A DNA stretch of 33,904 bases from Oscillospiraceae bacterium. GTDB lineage: Bacteria; Bacillota; Clostridia; Oscillospirales; UBA644. The number at the start of each line of letters is the position of its first letter. Position 1 is the stretch's first letter. Positions 25,563 to 33,320 of this stretch are shown here, in pieces. The position numbers and the translations under genes are program-made. The notes under the pieces were generated by a model. That model worked only from the letters and a program-made list of their open reading frames with translations, was not told where the DNA came from and did no database searches. The stretch is from NCBI GenBank assembly GCA_015067385.1, contig SVMP01000003.1, forward strand, positions 1 through 33,904, read 5' to 3'.

Positions 25563-27590
25563 ATGCAATATTCGGCATCTCAAATCAGAAATATTTGTCT
25601 TATGGGTCACGGTGGAGACGGAAAGACCTCTCTTGCCGAAGCTCTTCTTTACCACACTAAGGGTACAGACCGCCTCGGTACAACTCCTGACGGAAATACC
25701 ATATGCGACTTTGACCCCGAGGAAATCAAGAGAAAAATATCTATTTCTACCGCAATCGCTCCTATTGAATGGAAAAATACAAAAATAAATATTCTTGATA
25801 CTCCCGGTTATTTCGACTTTGAAGGCGAAGTTCTTCAGGCTCTCAGCGCAGCTGAAACCGCTCTTATCGTTGTTTCCGCAAGAGACGGTGTTAACGTTGG
25901 TACAGAAAAGGCGTTCAAGCTTGCAAAAGCTAAGGGCGTTCCCGTAATGTTCTTTATTTCTAAGGTTGATGAAGAAAATGCCGCTTTCCAGAAGGTTTTC
26001 GATCAGATGAAGGAAATGTTCGGCAAAGGTCTTTGCGCAGTAAACGTTCCCGTATTCCAGAACGACGGTAATCTCGTCGGTTACTATAACCTTGTTGACG
26101 ACGTTTGCCGCAGAGCAGACGGCAGCGGCAAGATCGCTGAAGTTTCTATCCCCGATTATAAGAAAGAAGCTATAGACAGACTCAAAGGTATCCTTAACGA
26201 AGCTATCGCGGAAACCGATGAAGAACTCATGGAAAAATTCTTTGCAGGCGAAGAATTCTCCAAAGAAGAGATCAGAAAAGGCGTTGAGATCGGTCTCGAA
26301 ACCGAAACTCTCGTTCCCGTTCTTTGCGGTTCCTCATATACTCTCGAAGGTATTCCTTCTCTTCTCGACTTCTTTGCTCAGTACGTTCCCGCTCCCAAGG
26401 ATAAATCTTCCGAAGACACCGGTCTTTTCGTATTCAAGACCATTGCCGACCCGTTCGTAGGCAAAATGTCCTTCTTTAAAGTCGTATCCGGCTCTATCGC
26501 AGCAGGCACGACACTTGTTAATCAGAATACCGGCTCCAACGAAAAACTCGGTCATATCTATACCATGAAAGGTAAAAAACAGACCGAAGTTACCGAACTT
26601 TGCTGCGGCGATATCGGCGTTGTTAACAAACTTGCAGCTACCGGAACAGGCGACGTTCTTTGCGTTGCAGGCAGCAACATCGAAGTTAATCCCATTGAAT
26701 ATCCGAAGCCCTGCTTCTCCAGAGCGATCAAACCCAAGGCAAAAGGCGACGAAGAAAAGATCTCTCAGGGCTTGCAGAGACTTGCGGAAGAAGATCTTAC
26801 ATTCTCTTACGTTAACAACGCTGAAACTCATGAACAGGTTATCAGCGGTATGGGCGACACCCATCTCGACGTTATCGTAAGCAAACTTAAATCTAAATTC
26901 AACGTTGCCGTTGATCTTTCAGAGCCTCGTGTTCCTTACAGAGAAGCGATCCGTAAGAAAGTTAAACAGCAGGGTAAACATAAGAAACAGTCCGGCGGTC
27001 ACGGTCAGTACGGTGACGTTTGGATCGAATTCGAACCGTATGACGGCGAAGAACTCCTCTTCGAAGAAAACGTATTCGGCGGCGCTGTTCCGAGAAACTT
27101 CTTCCCGGCAGTTGAAAAAGGTCTCCGTGAATGCGCTCTCAAGGGCGTTCTCGCAGGCTACCCCGTAGTCGGTCTTAAAGCAACTCTCGTTGACGGTTCC
27201 TACCACGACGTTGACTCTTCTGAAATGTCATTCAAGATGGCTGCTTCCATCGCTTTCAAGGAAGGTCTCAAGAACGCTTCCCCGACTATCCTTGAACCTA
27301 TCGGCAATCTTAAGGTTCTCGTTCCCGACAACCTTATGGGCGATATTATCGGCGATATCAACAAACGCAGAGGTCAGATCCTCGGTATGAATCCCGCTGA
27401 AGAAGCAGGTATGCAGGAAGTCCTCGCTACTGTTCCTATGTCCGAAATGGCTTCATATGCAACAGATCTTCGTTCTATGACTCGCGGCCGCGGCTCCTTT
27501 GATTTTGAATTCGATTCTTATCAGGATGCGCCCAGCAACGTTGCTCAGCAGATCATTGAAGAAGCTAAGAAGAATGCAGACGACGAATAA
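25563..27590 (+). CDS. Elongation factor G-like translational GTPase (EF-G paralogue)
   Basis: NICLMGHGGDGKTSLAEALLYHTKG (atypical P-loop), ILDTPGYFDFEGEV, domain IV/V GGHGQYGDVWIEFEP, DVDSSEMSFKMAASIAFKEG, GDIIGDINKRRGQILGM. A separate canonical fusA lies at the right edge. Confidence 0.9.
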   Translation: MQYSASQIRNICLMGHGGDGKTSLAEALLYHTKGTDRLGTTPDGNTICDFDPEEIKRKISISTAIAPIEWKNTKINILDTPGYFDFEGEVLQALSAAETALIVVSARDGVNVGTEKAFKLAKAKGVPVMFFISKVDEENAAFQKVFDQMKEMFGKGLCAVNVPVFQNDGNLVGYYNLVDDVCRRADGSGKIAEVSIPDYKKEAIDRLKGILNEAIAETDEELMEKFFAGEEFSKEEIRKGVEIGLETETLVPVLCGSSYTLEGIPSLLDFFAQYVPAPKDKSSEDTGLFVFKTIADPFVGKMSFFKVVSGSIAAGTTLVNQNTGSNEKLGHIYTMKGKKQTEVTELCCGDIGVVNKLAATGTGDVLCVAGSNIEVNPIEYPKPCFSRAIKPKAKGDEEKISQGLQRLAEEDLTFSYVNNAETHEQVISGMGDTHLDVIVSKLKSKFNVAVDLSEPRVPYREAIRKKVKQQGKHKKQSGGHGQYGDVWIEFEPYDGEELLFEENVFGGAVPRNFFPAVEKGLRECALKGVLAGYPVVGLKATLVDGSYHDVDSSEMSFKMAASIAFKEGLKNASPTILEPIGNLKVLVPDNLMGDIIGDINKRRGQILGMNPAEEAGMQEVLATVPMSEMASYATDLRSMTRGRGSFDFEFDSYQDAPSNVAQQIIEEAKKNADDE

Positions 27591-27661: not shown

Positions 27662-28501
27662 ATGGCAATGAATTTATATGAATCCGCTAAAGAGCGTGTT
27701 ATAATAACAGCACATCGCGGTGCTGCCGGCGGTAATATTCCTTGTAATACAATAGGCGCTTACGATTCTGCTCTCGCACAGGGCGCAGATATGATCGAGA
27801 TCGACGCAAGCCTCAGTGCAGACGGTACTCTTTACAGCTTCCACCCCTGGATGGAAGGTCAGCATCTCGGTACAGAGCTACGTATCCCCAAGCTTCATGA
27901 CGACGAGATAAAAGAGCTTCGATATGTCAACTATGACCGTGCAAGAACAGAGTGGGGCGTTTGCTCCTTCGATGAGATCTTCGAAAGATATAAGAACCGT
28001 TGCTTTATTAACGTCGATAAGTTCGGCGAACATCCCAAGGAGATCTGCGATCTTATCCGTAAGCACAATATGCAGGATCAGATCGTTGTAAAAAGCGGTC
28101 CCAATAAGGAGTCTCTTGATATTATCGAACAGTATGCTCCCGAGATCGCATACCTTTGCGTTATCAATAAGGATGACAACGTTCACGAGATGCTCAAAAA
28201 CCGCAATATCAATTATGTCGGCCTCGAAGTTCTCTTCTCAGAAGAAGACAGTCCGCTTTGTTCCGAAGAATTTATCGAAAAGCTTCATAAAGATAACAAG
28301 ATCGTCTGGGTAAACTCCATTATTTACGATTATCATGCACAGCTCTCCGCACGTCATTCCGACGATACAGCTCTTTCCTATGATATGGAATACGGCTGGG
28401 GCTGGCTCGCTAACAAGAATTTTGACATCATTCAGACAGACTGGCCGCTCGCCCTCAAGGTTTTCCTCGAAAGCACCGGCAGACGTTTCAGAAACAAATA
28501 A
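27662..28501 (+). CDS. Glycerophosphodiester phosphodiesterase family protein
   Basis: VIITAHRGAAGGNIPCNTIGAYDSALAQGADMIEIDASLSADGTLYSFHPWME: GDPD-like N-terminal motifs; C-terminal DIIQTDWPLAL. Confidence 0.85.
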   Translation: MAMNLYESAKERVIITAHRGAAGGNIPCNTIGAYDSALAQGADMIEIDASLSADGTLYSFHPWMEGQHLGTELRIPKLHDDEIKELRYVNYDRARTEWGVCSFDEIFERYKNRCFINVDKFGEHPKEICDLIRKHNMQDQIVVKSGPNKESLDIIEQYAPEIAYLCVINKDDNVHEMLKNRNINYVGLEVLFSEEDSPLCSEEFIEKLHKDNKIVWVNSIIYDYHAQLSARHSDDTALSYDMEYGWGWLANKNFDIIQTDWPLALKVFLESTGRRFRNK

Positions 28502-28551: not shown

Positions 28552-30108
28552 TTACTGAAGAGGACGCATGTCTGCAGGCATATAGGGGAGGGTAAATCCG
28601 ATAAGATTTGCGCCTTCGCTTGCGGATGAACGTTTGAACTGGTTCTTGTAATATCTGCTGTAGAACATATCAAGCGCCGCATTGATGGTGTCATCATCAT
28701 ATTCATCAAATGTTGCGAACATGTATTTCTGAATTTCAGCTCTGGGGAATTTATATTTTGCAAAATAGAAGATAATAAAGTCGTGAAGAATGTACGGTCC
28801 GAGAATGTCTTCTGTCTGCTGTCCCTCAATAAGCTCGGGAGAAACAGGGGTCGCAACGATATCTTTGAGCGTTGTGGCAAGATCGCCGCCACGTTTGCCT
28901 GCAATATGAAGAACAAGCTCACGGATAAGAGTTTTGGGCACAGTCGCATTAACGTTATAATGGCTGAGATTGTCGCCTGCATAAGTTGTAAAGCCGAGAG
29001 CCGCTTCGGAAAGGTCGCCTGTTCCGAGAGCAAGAGCATTTTCAATATTTGCAACATCAAAAAGGATCTGTGCACGCTCACGAGCCTGTGCGTTTTCAAA
29101 TACAACGTTCTTGTTTTCAACATCGTGTCCGATATCTTCAAAATGCTTGAGGAGAGATTCTTTGATATTGATCTCACGAACGGTAATTCCAAGCTCGTTC
29201 ATGAGCTTTTTCGCATTTTCGTTTGTTCTTTGCGATGTTCCGAAACAGGGGAGAGTAAGACCGATAATGTTCGATGCGGGAATACCGAGCATTTTGAACG
29301 TATTTTCCGCAACAAGAAGAGCCATCGTTGAATCAAGACCGCCCGATACGTTTATAACAGCCTTTTTGATTCCCGTGTTGACCATTCTCATGTAAAGGGA
29401 CTGGGTCTGAAGAAGGAAAAGGTCATCAAGATAACGCTTTTTATCGTTTTTACCGTAGTAGGGGATTCTGTAGTCGGCAACGTTCTTTCTTGTGTAGATA
29501 AGTCCGGTGTCTTTTGTGTCTTCCGCTGCTGCGATAACGGTTTCGGGTGCTTCCTGGTTCATAAATGCAACGGCAACGCCTTTGTTGAACACGCCGCAGA
29601 AACCTTTATATACATTGTCCGCAGAGCTTTCGCCGAAGCCGCCGTTTGCAACCGCAACAACGCAATTCTTTGCTCCGGAAGCCTTCGCACAATATTCAAT
29701 AATATCATTCTGAATGCAGGGATATCCGGGCATGATCGTCGGAAGAAGAAGGATATCGACATTTTCTGTGCTGCTTTCGGAAACAGAAACGGTTTTGCCG
29801 TTTACTTTAAAGCTACTCTTTTTGAGAAGAGCACCTTCCTTGATTATAACATTTTCATGGTAGGGGACAGACGTTACAATGATCTTGTTTGTCTTCTCGC
29901 TGTATTCGCAAAGCTTGTCGAGCGCATCCTCTGTCTGCTGCTTGAATTCGGGGAATTCGTAAAGCTCGCCTGCGGAAGCGCCTGTGAGGGAGTAGGCAGG
30001 GAAAAGGTATATATCGCCCTCGTTTTGATCCATTATTTCAATCATTTTATTCGCATTTTCCTTCGGATAGCCGAGAGAAATGACAAAAACAGATGTTACT
30101 ATTTTCAT
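28552..30108 (-). CDS. nadE: NAD+ synthetase with degenerate N-terminal nitrilase/glutaminase-like domain
   Basis: Synthetase domain: AVINVSGGLDSTMALLVAENTFKMLG, GLTLPCFGTSQRTNENAKKLMNELG, ENAQARERAQILFDVAN, LGTGDLSEAALGFTTYAGDNLSHYNVNATVPKTLIREL. N-terminus: DIYLFPAYSLTGASAGEL resembles the nitrilase-type domain but lacks catalytic motifs. Confidence 0.88.
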   Translation of the reverse strand: MKIVTSVFVISLGYPKENANKMIEIMDQNEGDIYLFPAYSLTGASAGELYEFPEFKQQTEDALDKLCEYSEKTNKIIVTSVPYHENVIIKEGALLKKSSFKVNGKTVSVSESSTENVDILLLPTIMPGYPCIQNDIIEYCAKASGAKNCVVAVANGGFGESSADNVYKGFCGVFNKGVAVAFMNQEAPETVIAAAEDTKDTGLIYTRKNVADYRIPYYGKNDKKRYLDDLFLLQTQSLYMRMVNTGIKKAVINVSGGLDSTMALLVAENTFKMLGIPASNIIGLTLPCFGTSQRTNENAKKLMNELGITVREINIKESLLKHFEDIGHDVENKNVVFENAQARERAQILFDVANIENALALGTGDLSEAALGFTTYAGDNLSHYNVNATVPKTLIRELVLHIAGKRGGDLATTLKDIVATPVSPELIEGQQTEDILGPYILHDFIIFYFAKYKFPRAEIQKYMFATFDEYDDDTINAALDMFYSRYYKNQFKRSSASEGANLIGFTLPYMPADMRPLQ

Positions 30109-30244: not shown

Positions 30245-31246
30245 TTACGCCATCGTTTCAAGCATTTTTTTCGTAACTTCGTATTGACAAGTCTTTCCGT
30301 CGATATACGCCTGACACTCTTCAAACATATATTTGCCCATTCTGCGTACCTCGTCTCCTGCACTTCCTGCGATATGAGGGGTGAGTTTGCAATTCGGCAA
30401 AGTGTAAAACGGATGCTCGCTTATCGGCGGTTCGGGCTCTGTTACGTCAAGCAAAGCTGTCAAGTCCGGTCTTTCTGTTAAAATACGGACAAGATCATCT
30501 TCAATGACCTGCGCACCTCGTCCGGTGTTTATAAAGACCGCATTCTCTCTCATGCGTCGGAAAAGATCGTAGTTTAACATCCCCTTTGTCTGCTCATTGT
30601 TCGCTAAATGATTGGAAACGACAAACGAACGTTCAAACAGCTCCGTAAGCTCACATTTTTCAACACCTAACTCGCTCGCTTTTTCATCGGGAAGGAACGG
30701 GTCGAAAACGCTCACTTTCAGATTGTATTGTTTTAACATTTTAATGACCAATTTACCGATCATTCCTGCGCCGATAATGCCTACGGTTTCTCCGTAATTT
30801 CCTTTACATTTTCTGAAAGCGGAATCTGCTGCCTGTCTGCCTTCCGAATGGAAGATTCGATTACTTACAAAATAACCTTTATTTGCAAGAATTATCTGTG
30901 CAACCGTCATTTCTGCAACGGGAACAGCGTTTGCTCCCCATGCCGAAAAGACTTTTACACCGCATTCAAGGAACGGACGTGCAAAAGACTGCACACTGCC
31001 TGCACCGTAAAAGACACATTTGAGCTTCGGAAGCGTGTTTCTGATCTCTTCTTCGCTCATTGAGGGCATACCCCAGGTCGAAAAAATGATCTCAACATTT
31101 GAAAAATGTTCGGGGTTTTCCTGTATCATTTTGCGATTATAAACTTTTTCATCAAGCTCGGCGATCTTTTTGATTTCGCAAACCGTCTCGCTGTCATAAA
31201 CTCTTGAAATATTATCGGGGGCTTCACATAAAAAAATTGCTCTCAT
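30245..31246 (-). CDS. D-isomer-specific 2-hydroxyacid dehydrogenase family protein
   Basis: GETVGIIGAGMIGKLVIKMLK (Rossmann), FINTGRGAQVIEDDLV, LLDVTEPEPP, TPHIAGS: conserved R/E/H positions retained. Confidence 0.92.
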   Translation of the reverse strand: MRAIFLCEAPDNISRVYDSETVCEIKKIAELDEKVYNRKMIQENPEHFSNVEIIFSTWGMPSMSEEEIRNTLPKLKCVFYGAGSVQSFARPFLECGVKVFSAWGANAVPVAEMTVAQIILANKGYFVSNRIFHSEGRQAADSAFRKCKGNYGETVGIIGAGMIGKLVIKMLKQYNLKVSVFDPFLPDEKASELGVEKCELTELFERSFVVSNHLANNEQTKGMLNYDLFRRMRENAVFINTGRGAQVIEDDLVRILTERPDLTALLDVTEPEPPISEHPFYTLPNCKLTPHIAGSAGDEVRRMGKYMFEECQAYIDGKTCQYEVTKKMLETMA

Positions 31247-31252
31247 TTCACA

Positions 31253-32008
31253 CTATCCTTTTATTATACGTTTCAGCGCATCCATTTCTGTGGGGAGCGT
31301 TTCAATCCGTCCGTCAGGCATAAATTCAAGAAGAAGAGTACGGGGTGTTGTAAATTTAGACAGGTAGCCCTGCCATTCCTCGATGCCTTCGTTCAAAGAG
31401 AATTTTTCTTGACCTTTCCACTGAAAAACATGAATATTTCGTGTGTATGGTGCGATCGCTTCGGCATATTTCATGTTTTCCTCTATATTTTGCCATTGGA
31501 ACGGCTGCCAATACATTCGGAATCTCGGCGAGTTTATCTCTTTCATGAATTCGAGCGCATCGTCAAGATATTCAGCTATAGTGTCATGATGACATTCCAT
31601 ACAGAAAAATACATCATATTTCTCTGCGATCTCAACGCTTTTACGGCATTCTTCAAGCAACAAGCGTCTTTCTTCTTCGGTCATATTTTTTCCGTTCTTT
31701 GTTCCGCACCAAAGGCGTAAAACATTTGTGCCAAGTATCTTTGCAGCCGTTATATAATCTGTCAATTCGCTGAGCGGCGTTTCGCCCAAACGGAAATATG
31801 TACCGTAAGATGAGCAGAACAAATCATATTCTTTTTGCAGTTCGGCAATTTCGTTTAATCGGGCAATATCACGGCAAGGCGCATGTACATCACTGCCCCA
31901 TTCTATACAGGAAAGCCCTACATTCTTTACTGCTTGAATGATCTCCTTCGGCGTATTGCCCCGAAAAGAGACAGACACTAACCCTAATAAATACTGATTC
32001 TCTTTCAT
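31253..32008 (-). CDS. Sugar phosphate isomerase/epimerase-like TIM-barrel protein
   Basis: MKENQYLLGLVSVSFRGNTPKEIIQAVKNVGLSCIEWGSDVHAPC, VFFCMECHHDTIAEYLDDALEFMKEI, RMYWQPFQW (AP_endonuc_2-like). Start at 32008 preferred over the ORF-track 32095. Confidence 0.8.
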   Translation of the reverse strand: MKENQYLLGLVSVSFRGNTPKEIIQAVKNVGLSCIEWGSDVHAPCRDIARLNEIAELQKEYDLFCSSYGTYFRLGETPLSELTDYITAAKILGTNVLRLWCGTKNGKNMTEEERRLLLEECRKSVEIAEKYDVFFCMECHHDTIAEYLDDALEFMKEINSPRFRMYWQPFQWQNIEENMKYAEAIAPYTRNIHVFQWKGQEKFSLNEGIEEWQGYLSKFTTPRTLLLEFMPDGRIETLPTEMDALKRIIKG

Positions 32009-32063
32009 GCTTGTAACACCTTTCTCTTGAATGAAGGATCGCAATATACTTTTTCTATAACAA

Positions 32064-32092
32064 AAAAAGGAGAGGACGAGCCTCTCCTTTTT
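32064..32092 (-). terminator. Rho-independent terminator downstream of tuf
   Basis: 12-bp stem aaaaaggagagg (32064-32075)/cctctccttttt (32081-32092); T-run on the minus strand. Confidence 0.8.
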
Positions 32093-32118
32093 CAAGTTGC
32101 ATTATAATTCTGTTAAAA

Positions 32119-33320
32119 TTATTCAGCGATGGTGGAAACGACACCGGAACCAACGGTTTTGCCGCCTTCACGGATAGCGAAACGGAGACCTTCTTCGATA
32201 GCGATGGGAGTGATGAGCTCAACGTTGATGGTAACGTTTTCGCCGGGCATGCACATGTCAACGCCTTCTTTGAGGGTGATGATACCGGTAACGTCAGTAG
32301 TTCTGAAGTAGAACTGGGGTCTGTAGTTGGATACGAAGGGTTTATGACGGCCGCCTTCTTTAGCGGTAAGAACGTAAACCTCGCCGGTGAATTTGGTGTG
32401 GGGTTTGATGGTACCAGGTTTAGCAAGAACCTGACCTCTTTCAACGTCAGTTCTCTGGATACCACGGAGGAGACAACCGATGTTATCGCCTGCTTCAGCG
32501 GAGTCGAGGAGTTTTCTGAACATTTCGATACCGGTAACAACAGACTTACGGGTTTCTTCTTTGATACCAACGATTTAACTTCTTCAGACATCTTAACAAC
32601 GCCTCTTTCAACACGACCGGTAACAACGGTACCACGGCCGGTGATGGTCATAACGTCTTCGATAGGCATGAGGAAGGGAAGGTTATCGTTTCTTTCAGGA
32701 GTGGGAATGAAGCTGTCAACAGCGTCCATAAGTTCTCTGAGGCAAGCATATTCGGGAGCTTCGGGATCTCTGGAAGTAGATTCGAGAGCGATAAGAGAGC
32801 TACCCTGAATGATGGGAGTGTCATCGCCGGGGAATTCGTACTTGTTGAGGAGGTCACGAATGTCCATTTCAACGATTTCGAGAAGTTCGGGGTCGTCAAC
32901 CTGGTCACATTTGTTCATGAAAACAACGATTGCAGGAACGCCAACCTGACGAGCAAGAAGAATGTGTTCGCTGGTCTGAGCCATAACGCCGTCGGATGCA
33001 GCAACAACGAGGATAGCGCCGTCCATCTGAGCAGCACCGGTGATCATGTTTTTGATGTAGTCAGCATGGCCCGGGCAGTCAACGTGAGCGTAGTGACGGT
33101 TGTCAGTTTCGTACTCAACGTGAGCGGTGTTAATGGTAATACCTCTTTCTCTTTCTTCGGGTGCTTTGTCGATCATATCATATGCTTCGAACTGAGCGTA
33201 GCCCTTAAGGGAGAGGAATTTGGTGATAGCAGCGGTAGTGGTGGTCTTACCATGGTCAACGTGACCGATGGTACCAATGTTAACGTGGGGTTTAGTTCTT
33301 TCAAATTTAGCCTTTGCCAT
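32119..33320 (-). CDS. tuf: Elongation factor Tu, interrupted by a 1-nt frameshift near 32576
   Basis: [34 protein letters not shown]... to [13 protein letters not shown] in one frame; [38 protein letters not shown]...SGVVSTIAE in another frame. Confidence 0.95.

Follow-up and report, generated by a model that had tools for sequence, protein, structure and literature searches.

The window, that is, the whole stretch of 33,904 nucleotides analysed here, carries on its reverse strand a gene for an unusually short NAD synthetase (NadE), whose parts are listed in Table 1. A sequence-only reading had already given this open reading frame, with its strand, its length and its Ala38 codon, and all four were found again. 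An EF-G-like GTPase of 675 aa (25563-27590, +) and a GDPD gene (27662-28501) lie on one side and are syntenic beside the short nadE in the genus. On the other side, genes for a 2-hydroxyacid dehydrogenase and an AP_endonuc_2 (xylose isomerase-like) protein (30245-32095, -) separate the short nadE from tuf (32058-33320, -), which encodes EF-Tu and is located directly upstream of nadE in the genomes G197 and G083. The tuf frame of the window is left near position 32570, after about residue 250. Its product has an intact GTP_EFTU domain and a domain 2 that is cut short, the rest of the open reading frame being unrelated sequence. A full-length EF-Tu occupies the syntenic place in a relative, and the break in the window is probably an assembly error in this metagenome-assembled genome (MAG).

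Table 1. The short nadE gene of the window and the parts of its product (all positions are those of the window).
Feature	Positions	Strand	Evidence
Short NadE, 518 aa (P0001), stop codon included	28552..30108	-	NAD_synthase E 2.6e-29; one of 18 family orthologues
Remnant nitrilase (glutaminase) domain, residues 1-217	29458..30108	-	CN_hydrolase match not significant; AlphaFold2 pLDDT 85
Ala38 codon, in place of the catalytic Glu (Glu52 in M. tuberculosis NadE)	29995..29997	-	Alignment
Residues 83-117, 35 residues in place of 97 with the catalytic Lys, the YRE loop, the catalytic Cys and the following helix	29758..29862	-	Alignment; strands still predicted
PTIMPGYPC, residues 123-131, adjoining the former active site	29716..29742	-	P-T-x-M-x-x-Y-P-C invariant in 18/18 short forms
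Synthetase (PP-loop) domain, residues 218-518	28555..29457	-	Profile and comparison with fused NadE
SGGLDST, ATP pyrophosphatase P-loop, residues 255-261	29326..29346	-	Absent from the G123 and G149 copies
GTGDLSE motif, residues 362-368	29005..29025	-	Absent from the G123 and G149 copies
Asp379 codon	28972..28974	-	Aligned with Asp497 of M. tuberculosis NadE; role of Asp497 from PMC6946656

The C-terminal synthetase domain had been described as canonical, and the presence of both SGGLDST and GTGDLSE, together with the Pfam NAD_synthase match, bears this out. The N-terminal domain is different. Its residues were compared with Glu52, Lys121, Cys176 and the YRE loop of M. tuberculosis NadE, whose roles are known (PMC6946656). 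Alignment with the full-length NadE proteins of the order, and via one of them with the M. tuberculosis enzyme, confirmed the earlier proposal that the catalytic Glu is replaced by Ala38. The segments carrying the Lys and the Cys are missing, as had also been proposed, and counterparts of Lys121 and Cys176 are lacking in the alignment with M. tuberculosis NadE. The 97 residues of the reference NadE (L052) are represented by only 35 in the window protein (residues 83-117). The same reading had the chain running from MPGY straight to GFGESS; this segment is indeed shortened, but about 26 residues (PCIQNDIIEYCAKASGAKNCVVAVAN) lie in between.

At the three positions of the Glu-Lys-Cys triad, all 18 short forms show an invariant Ala38 and two deletions. 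The Pfam family CN_hydrolase (PF00795) did not match the complete window protein at E<=1. The isolated N-domain reached 11.8 bits, below the cut-off of 23.2, and an intact full-length relative taken as a control scored 84.9 bits. Loss of glutaminase activity from the window protein is supported by these sequence comparisons. A new glutaminase or amidase site could have been built on other residues, such as the Tyr-Pro-Cys131 segment and Cys140. Y129-P130-C131, D135, C140 and E160 are invariant in 18/18 short forms of the family alignment, and the Cys131 segment aligns beside the former active site. Invariance alone is no proof of catalysis, however, and the nitrilase Glu-Lys-Cys arrangement is absent. 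Moreover, Cys131 is kept even in copies with a dead synthetase, where the output of a glutaminase would be useless. Such a new site is considered improbable.

Structure prediction, which had been proposed as a check, indicates that the nitrilase fold is kept. The AlphaFold2 models have a pLDDT of 80.5 for the whole protein and 85.4 for the N-domain alone. The best PDB matches of the N-domain model are structures of M. tuberculosis NadE, with a TM-score of about 0.73-0.75 by query length, and stand-alone amidases rank behind the glutaminase domain of this enzyme. As the strands of the nitrilase sandwich are retained in the models, the deletion is predicted to have taken out the catalytic loops and left the beta scaffold. 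The whole-chain model fits M. tuberculosis NadE poorly (rmsd about 20 Å), and the placement of the domains in it is therefore not relied on.

The short form is found in 18 of the 20 genomes of the family set (group code f1, 7 genera). One further genome has a fragment at a contig edge, and one MAG (61% complete) shows none; all family genomes of sufficient completeness have the short form. With a profile built on the short N-domain (A3), the 18 carriers all reach 315 bits or more. No other genome among the 394 examined for the order or the 391 for the class exceeds 53 bits, and the short form was not found in any of them. This gap makes the short form a property of one family. An assembly error or a frameshift in nadE is ruled out, since 17 other genomes have the same shortened domain.

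Loss of the glutaminase site is not restricted to the short forms. Among the 92 scorable full-size NadE proteins (90 from the order and two from outside), Glu-Lys-Cys is kept in 76 and the Cys is absent in 16, a count that includes G170, which aligns a Cys but has neither Glu nor Lys. In most of these, a Gly stands in place of the Cys and the motif can otherwise be recognised. The synthetase-domain tree requires the Cys state to have changed at least 10 times. Parsimony counts alone give no direction to these changes; we infer that they run from Cys to its loss from the wide occurrence of the Cys. In 13 of the 16 genomes with a Cys-less full-size form, the NadE with the dead glutaminase is the only one of the genome. 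Within the order, the states form a graded series, from intact through Cys to Gly and loss of the triad to excised loops.

The short forms are monophyletic (100/100). Their sister group (100/98) consists of the proteins of G170 and G037, in which the triad is lost at near full size, a position which suggests that the loops were excised only after inactivation. Starting from a fused, glutamine-dependent NadE, the triad would have been lost while the domain was still near full size, a state that would survive in G170 and G037. The two catalytic loops, one with the Lys and the YRE loop and the other with the Cys and its helix, would then have been excised, leaving the beta scaffold. G037 encodes three PF02540 proteins on contigs C42 and C51, of which two are of the ammonia type (open reading frames of 272 and 292 aa, contig C42) and the third is the near full-size NadE without the triad.

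No other strong PF02540 protein accompanies the short form in 13 of its 18 carriers. Any one of these MAGs could miss a second NadE, though the five that are at least 90% complete (G053, G069, G083, G109 and G171) agree. The search for a second nadE in the genome of the window, suggested in the sequence-only reading, found none in a MAG that is 77% complete. Two carriers, G034 and G096, also have an ammonia-type NadE, and three others, G009, G123 and G149, have a full-length NadE with an intact triad. In G034, a close relative, the ammonia-type NadE (242 aa) and an adjoining CN_hydrolase gene form a two-subunit-like arrangement (L132, G034:C15, 2328-3949). NadD is found in 19/20 family genomes, and the substrate of NadE is therefore made. 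Pairwise dN/dS values are low: about 0.03-0.13 for the N-domain, about 0.04-0.11 for the synthetase.

These data bear on the idea that the short protein is nowhere an NAD synthetase but a moonlighting or regulatory paralogue, with NAD supplied by another route such as salvage. The copies of G123 and G149, which lack the synthetase site in genomes that also have a full-length NadE, would fit this idea. In 13 genomes, however, the protein is the only NadE, its synthetase motifs are all intact, its dN/dS is low, and the substrate-making enzyme NadD is conserved. Little weight is given to a paralogue of this kind.

The enzyme might still depend on glutamine if a stand-alone glutaminase of the nitrilase type docked in trans, as in the two-subunit (type C or R) synthetases. 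Two-subunit NAD synthetases do exist, according to the 2012 survey (PMC3376133), and G034 has its CN_hydrolase gene beside its other, ammonia-type NadE. Unlike in the two-subunit systems, no separate glutaminase of this type is present in G053, G069, G083 and G109: in these genomes (90-95% complete), no CN_hydrolase protein of any kind was found, which argues against a nitrilase-type partner there. The only CN_hydrolase protein of the window's genome is split over two contig ends and reads as an apolipoprotein N-acyltransferase (Lnt-like). The loops that would form a glutamine site in cis are gone as well. Glutamine dependence in trans is considered very improbable.

The sequence-only reading had proposed free NH3 or another ammonia donor. 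Because most family genomes have no NadE other than the short form, NadD is present, no nitrilase-type glutaminase partner was found and dN/dS is low, an ammonia-dependent NAD synthetase using free NH3 is the best inference. With a probability of roughly 80%, the gene of the window encodes a working ammonia-dependent NAD synthetase whose glutaminase site has been excised. The enzyme would adenylate nicotinic acid adenine dinucleotide with ATP and would then amidate it with free ammonia. Close relatives with named records were obtained from the gut of ruminants and deer (water deer colon, goat omasum and RUG isolates), sites that are rich in ammonia, and such a habitat may have been a permissive condition.

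The role of the remnant domain is best approached through the copies of G123 and G149. These short proteins lack the P-loop and the GTGD motif, and their synthetase half has lost about 45-70 residues; the frames nevertheless stay open over 473 codons (G123) and 449 codons (G149). Both copies are in ordinary operon positions. The G123 copy is located between AddA-like and RecD-like genes, as in G009, and AddA-like sequence is also found upstream in G160 and G096. The G149 copy lies between ispF-like and ruvC-like genes, and TrmB and IspF neighbours are also found in G201. In the N-domain tree, G123 groups with G009 (95/93) and G149 with the genus g5 (100/100). As the two are sister to different lineages, the synthetase site was probably lost twice, each case being represented by a single MAG, with one genome per genus.

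The two halves of these doubly dead proteins have changed at very different rates. The end branches of their N-domains (0.61 for G123 and 0.45 for G149) are similar to those of the intact relatives G182 (0.61) and G009 (0.47), whereas their synthetase branches measure 4.7-5.0, versus about 0.3. The N-domains share 36-56% identity with the intact forms, which is to be compared with 40-68% between intact genera. For the P-loop half, the identity is 16-28% in G123 and G149 versus 47-62%.

The full-length NadE proteins of G009, G123 and G149 sit at different places in the tree. Contamination as the source of these copies was rejected, as their tetranucleotide composition fits their own genome better than the related full-length carriers. 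The match is 0.94-0.97 for G009 (with one outlying contig at 0.78), 0.90-0.95 for G123 and 0.87-0.91 for G149; with a contig of 4 kb, G123 gives the weakest test. The separate tree places and the match to the own genome make independent acquisition likelier than contamination.

The sequence-only reading had regarded the N-domain as a vestigial scaffold for the synthetase. This is not supported as stated, with a dN/dS in the N-domain close to that of the synthetase half and a normal rate of change in G123 and G149 despite the lost synthetase site. A mere structural scaffold without a role of its own, which would be compatible with ammonia use, is a possibility of some standing that we do not favour. 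Full-length NadE is an octamer with its two domains packed together (PMC6946656), and the enzyme could become unstable if this domain were lost; the contrary evidence comes from two MAGs only. Against it, the remnant is under constraint similar in strength to that on the synthetase, and its conservation in G123 and G149 after the synthetase site had died makes this description too weak. The remnant domain appears, from its sequence conservation, to be retained for a purpose other than the support of NAD synthesis. Its conserved role (assembly, regulation or ligand binding) would probably be separable from NAD synthesis, a point that is less certain as it comes from two lineages. More tentatively, the domain may have taken on a new function unrelated to ammonia supply, which selection would preserve after the death of the attached synthetase. 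The proteins of G123 and G149 would then be doubly dead pseudoenzymes acting as a sensor, a regulator or a partner, possibly of the full-length NadE of their own genome.

Compared to known systems, the window protein, a member of the NadE superfamily, resembles most closely the fused, glutamine-dependent NadE (type F; M. tuberculosis NadE, NCBIfam NF002730). It shares with this type the domain order, the PP-loop, GTGDLSE and a predicted nitrilase-like N-terminal fold, for which the best structural matches are found there. It differs by the absence of the Glu-Lys-Cys triad and the YRE loop and by a length shorter by about 110 residues, and it reaches 376.9 bits on NF002730, below the curated cut-off of 473. 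With the single-domain ammonia-dependent NadE (TIGR00552; H. pylori, B. subtilis) it has in common the synthetase fold, with a domain score of 80.6 (cut-off 63.65), and probably the nitrogen donor. Proteins of that type have about 250-290 aa, whereas the window protein has 518 aa with a retained N-domain of ~217 aa and, in its synthetase half, a far greater similarity to the fused family.

Carbamoyl phosphate synthetase 1 (CPS1) is an ammonia enzyme that keeps an inactive glutaminase domain after loss of the nucleophile (PMC4655335). The short NadE may be seen as its analogue, with a dead glutaminase domain kept and free ammonia used. The glutaminase class is unrelated, however, and CPS1 has a Cys to Ser change in an intact domain, whereas both catalytic loops are gone here. 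Closer at hand are the near full-size NadE proteins of the order with a replaced Cys (G016, G057, G064, G120, G079, G089 and others), in which the glutaminase is also dead by sequence and which are usually the only NadE of their genome. Unlike the short forms, they mostly retain the loops, and their losses are independent except for G170 and G037, the sister group of the short forms.

A search restricted to open-access papers gave no report of a NadE with a dead glutaminase in Clostridia, so the novelty is not certain. The 2012 survey (PMC3376133) distinguishes fused glutamine-using from stand-alone ammonia-using NAD synthetases and infers no later fission; inactivated fused enzymes are not described in the passages considered. 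The short NadE would represent a third route, in which a fused NadE is converted to ammonia use through loss of the glutaminase site within the fused chain. The doubly dead copies provide a clean way to ask why a dead amidotransferase domain is kept. The graded series, with its at least 10 changes of state, would constitute a natural experiment to learn under which conditions glutamine channelling is required, and bears on the question of the in vivo nitrogen donor raised in that survey (PMC3376133).
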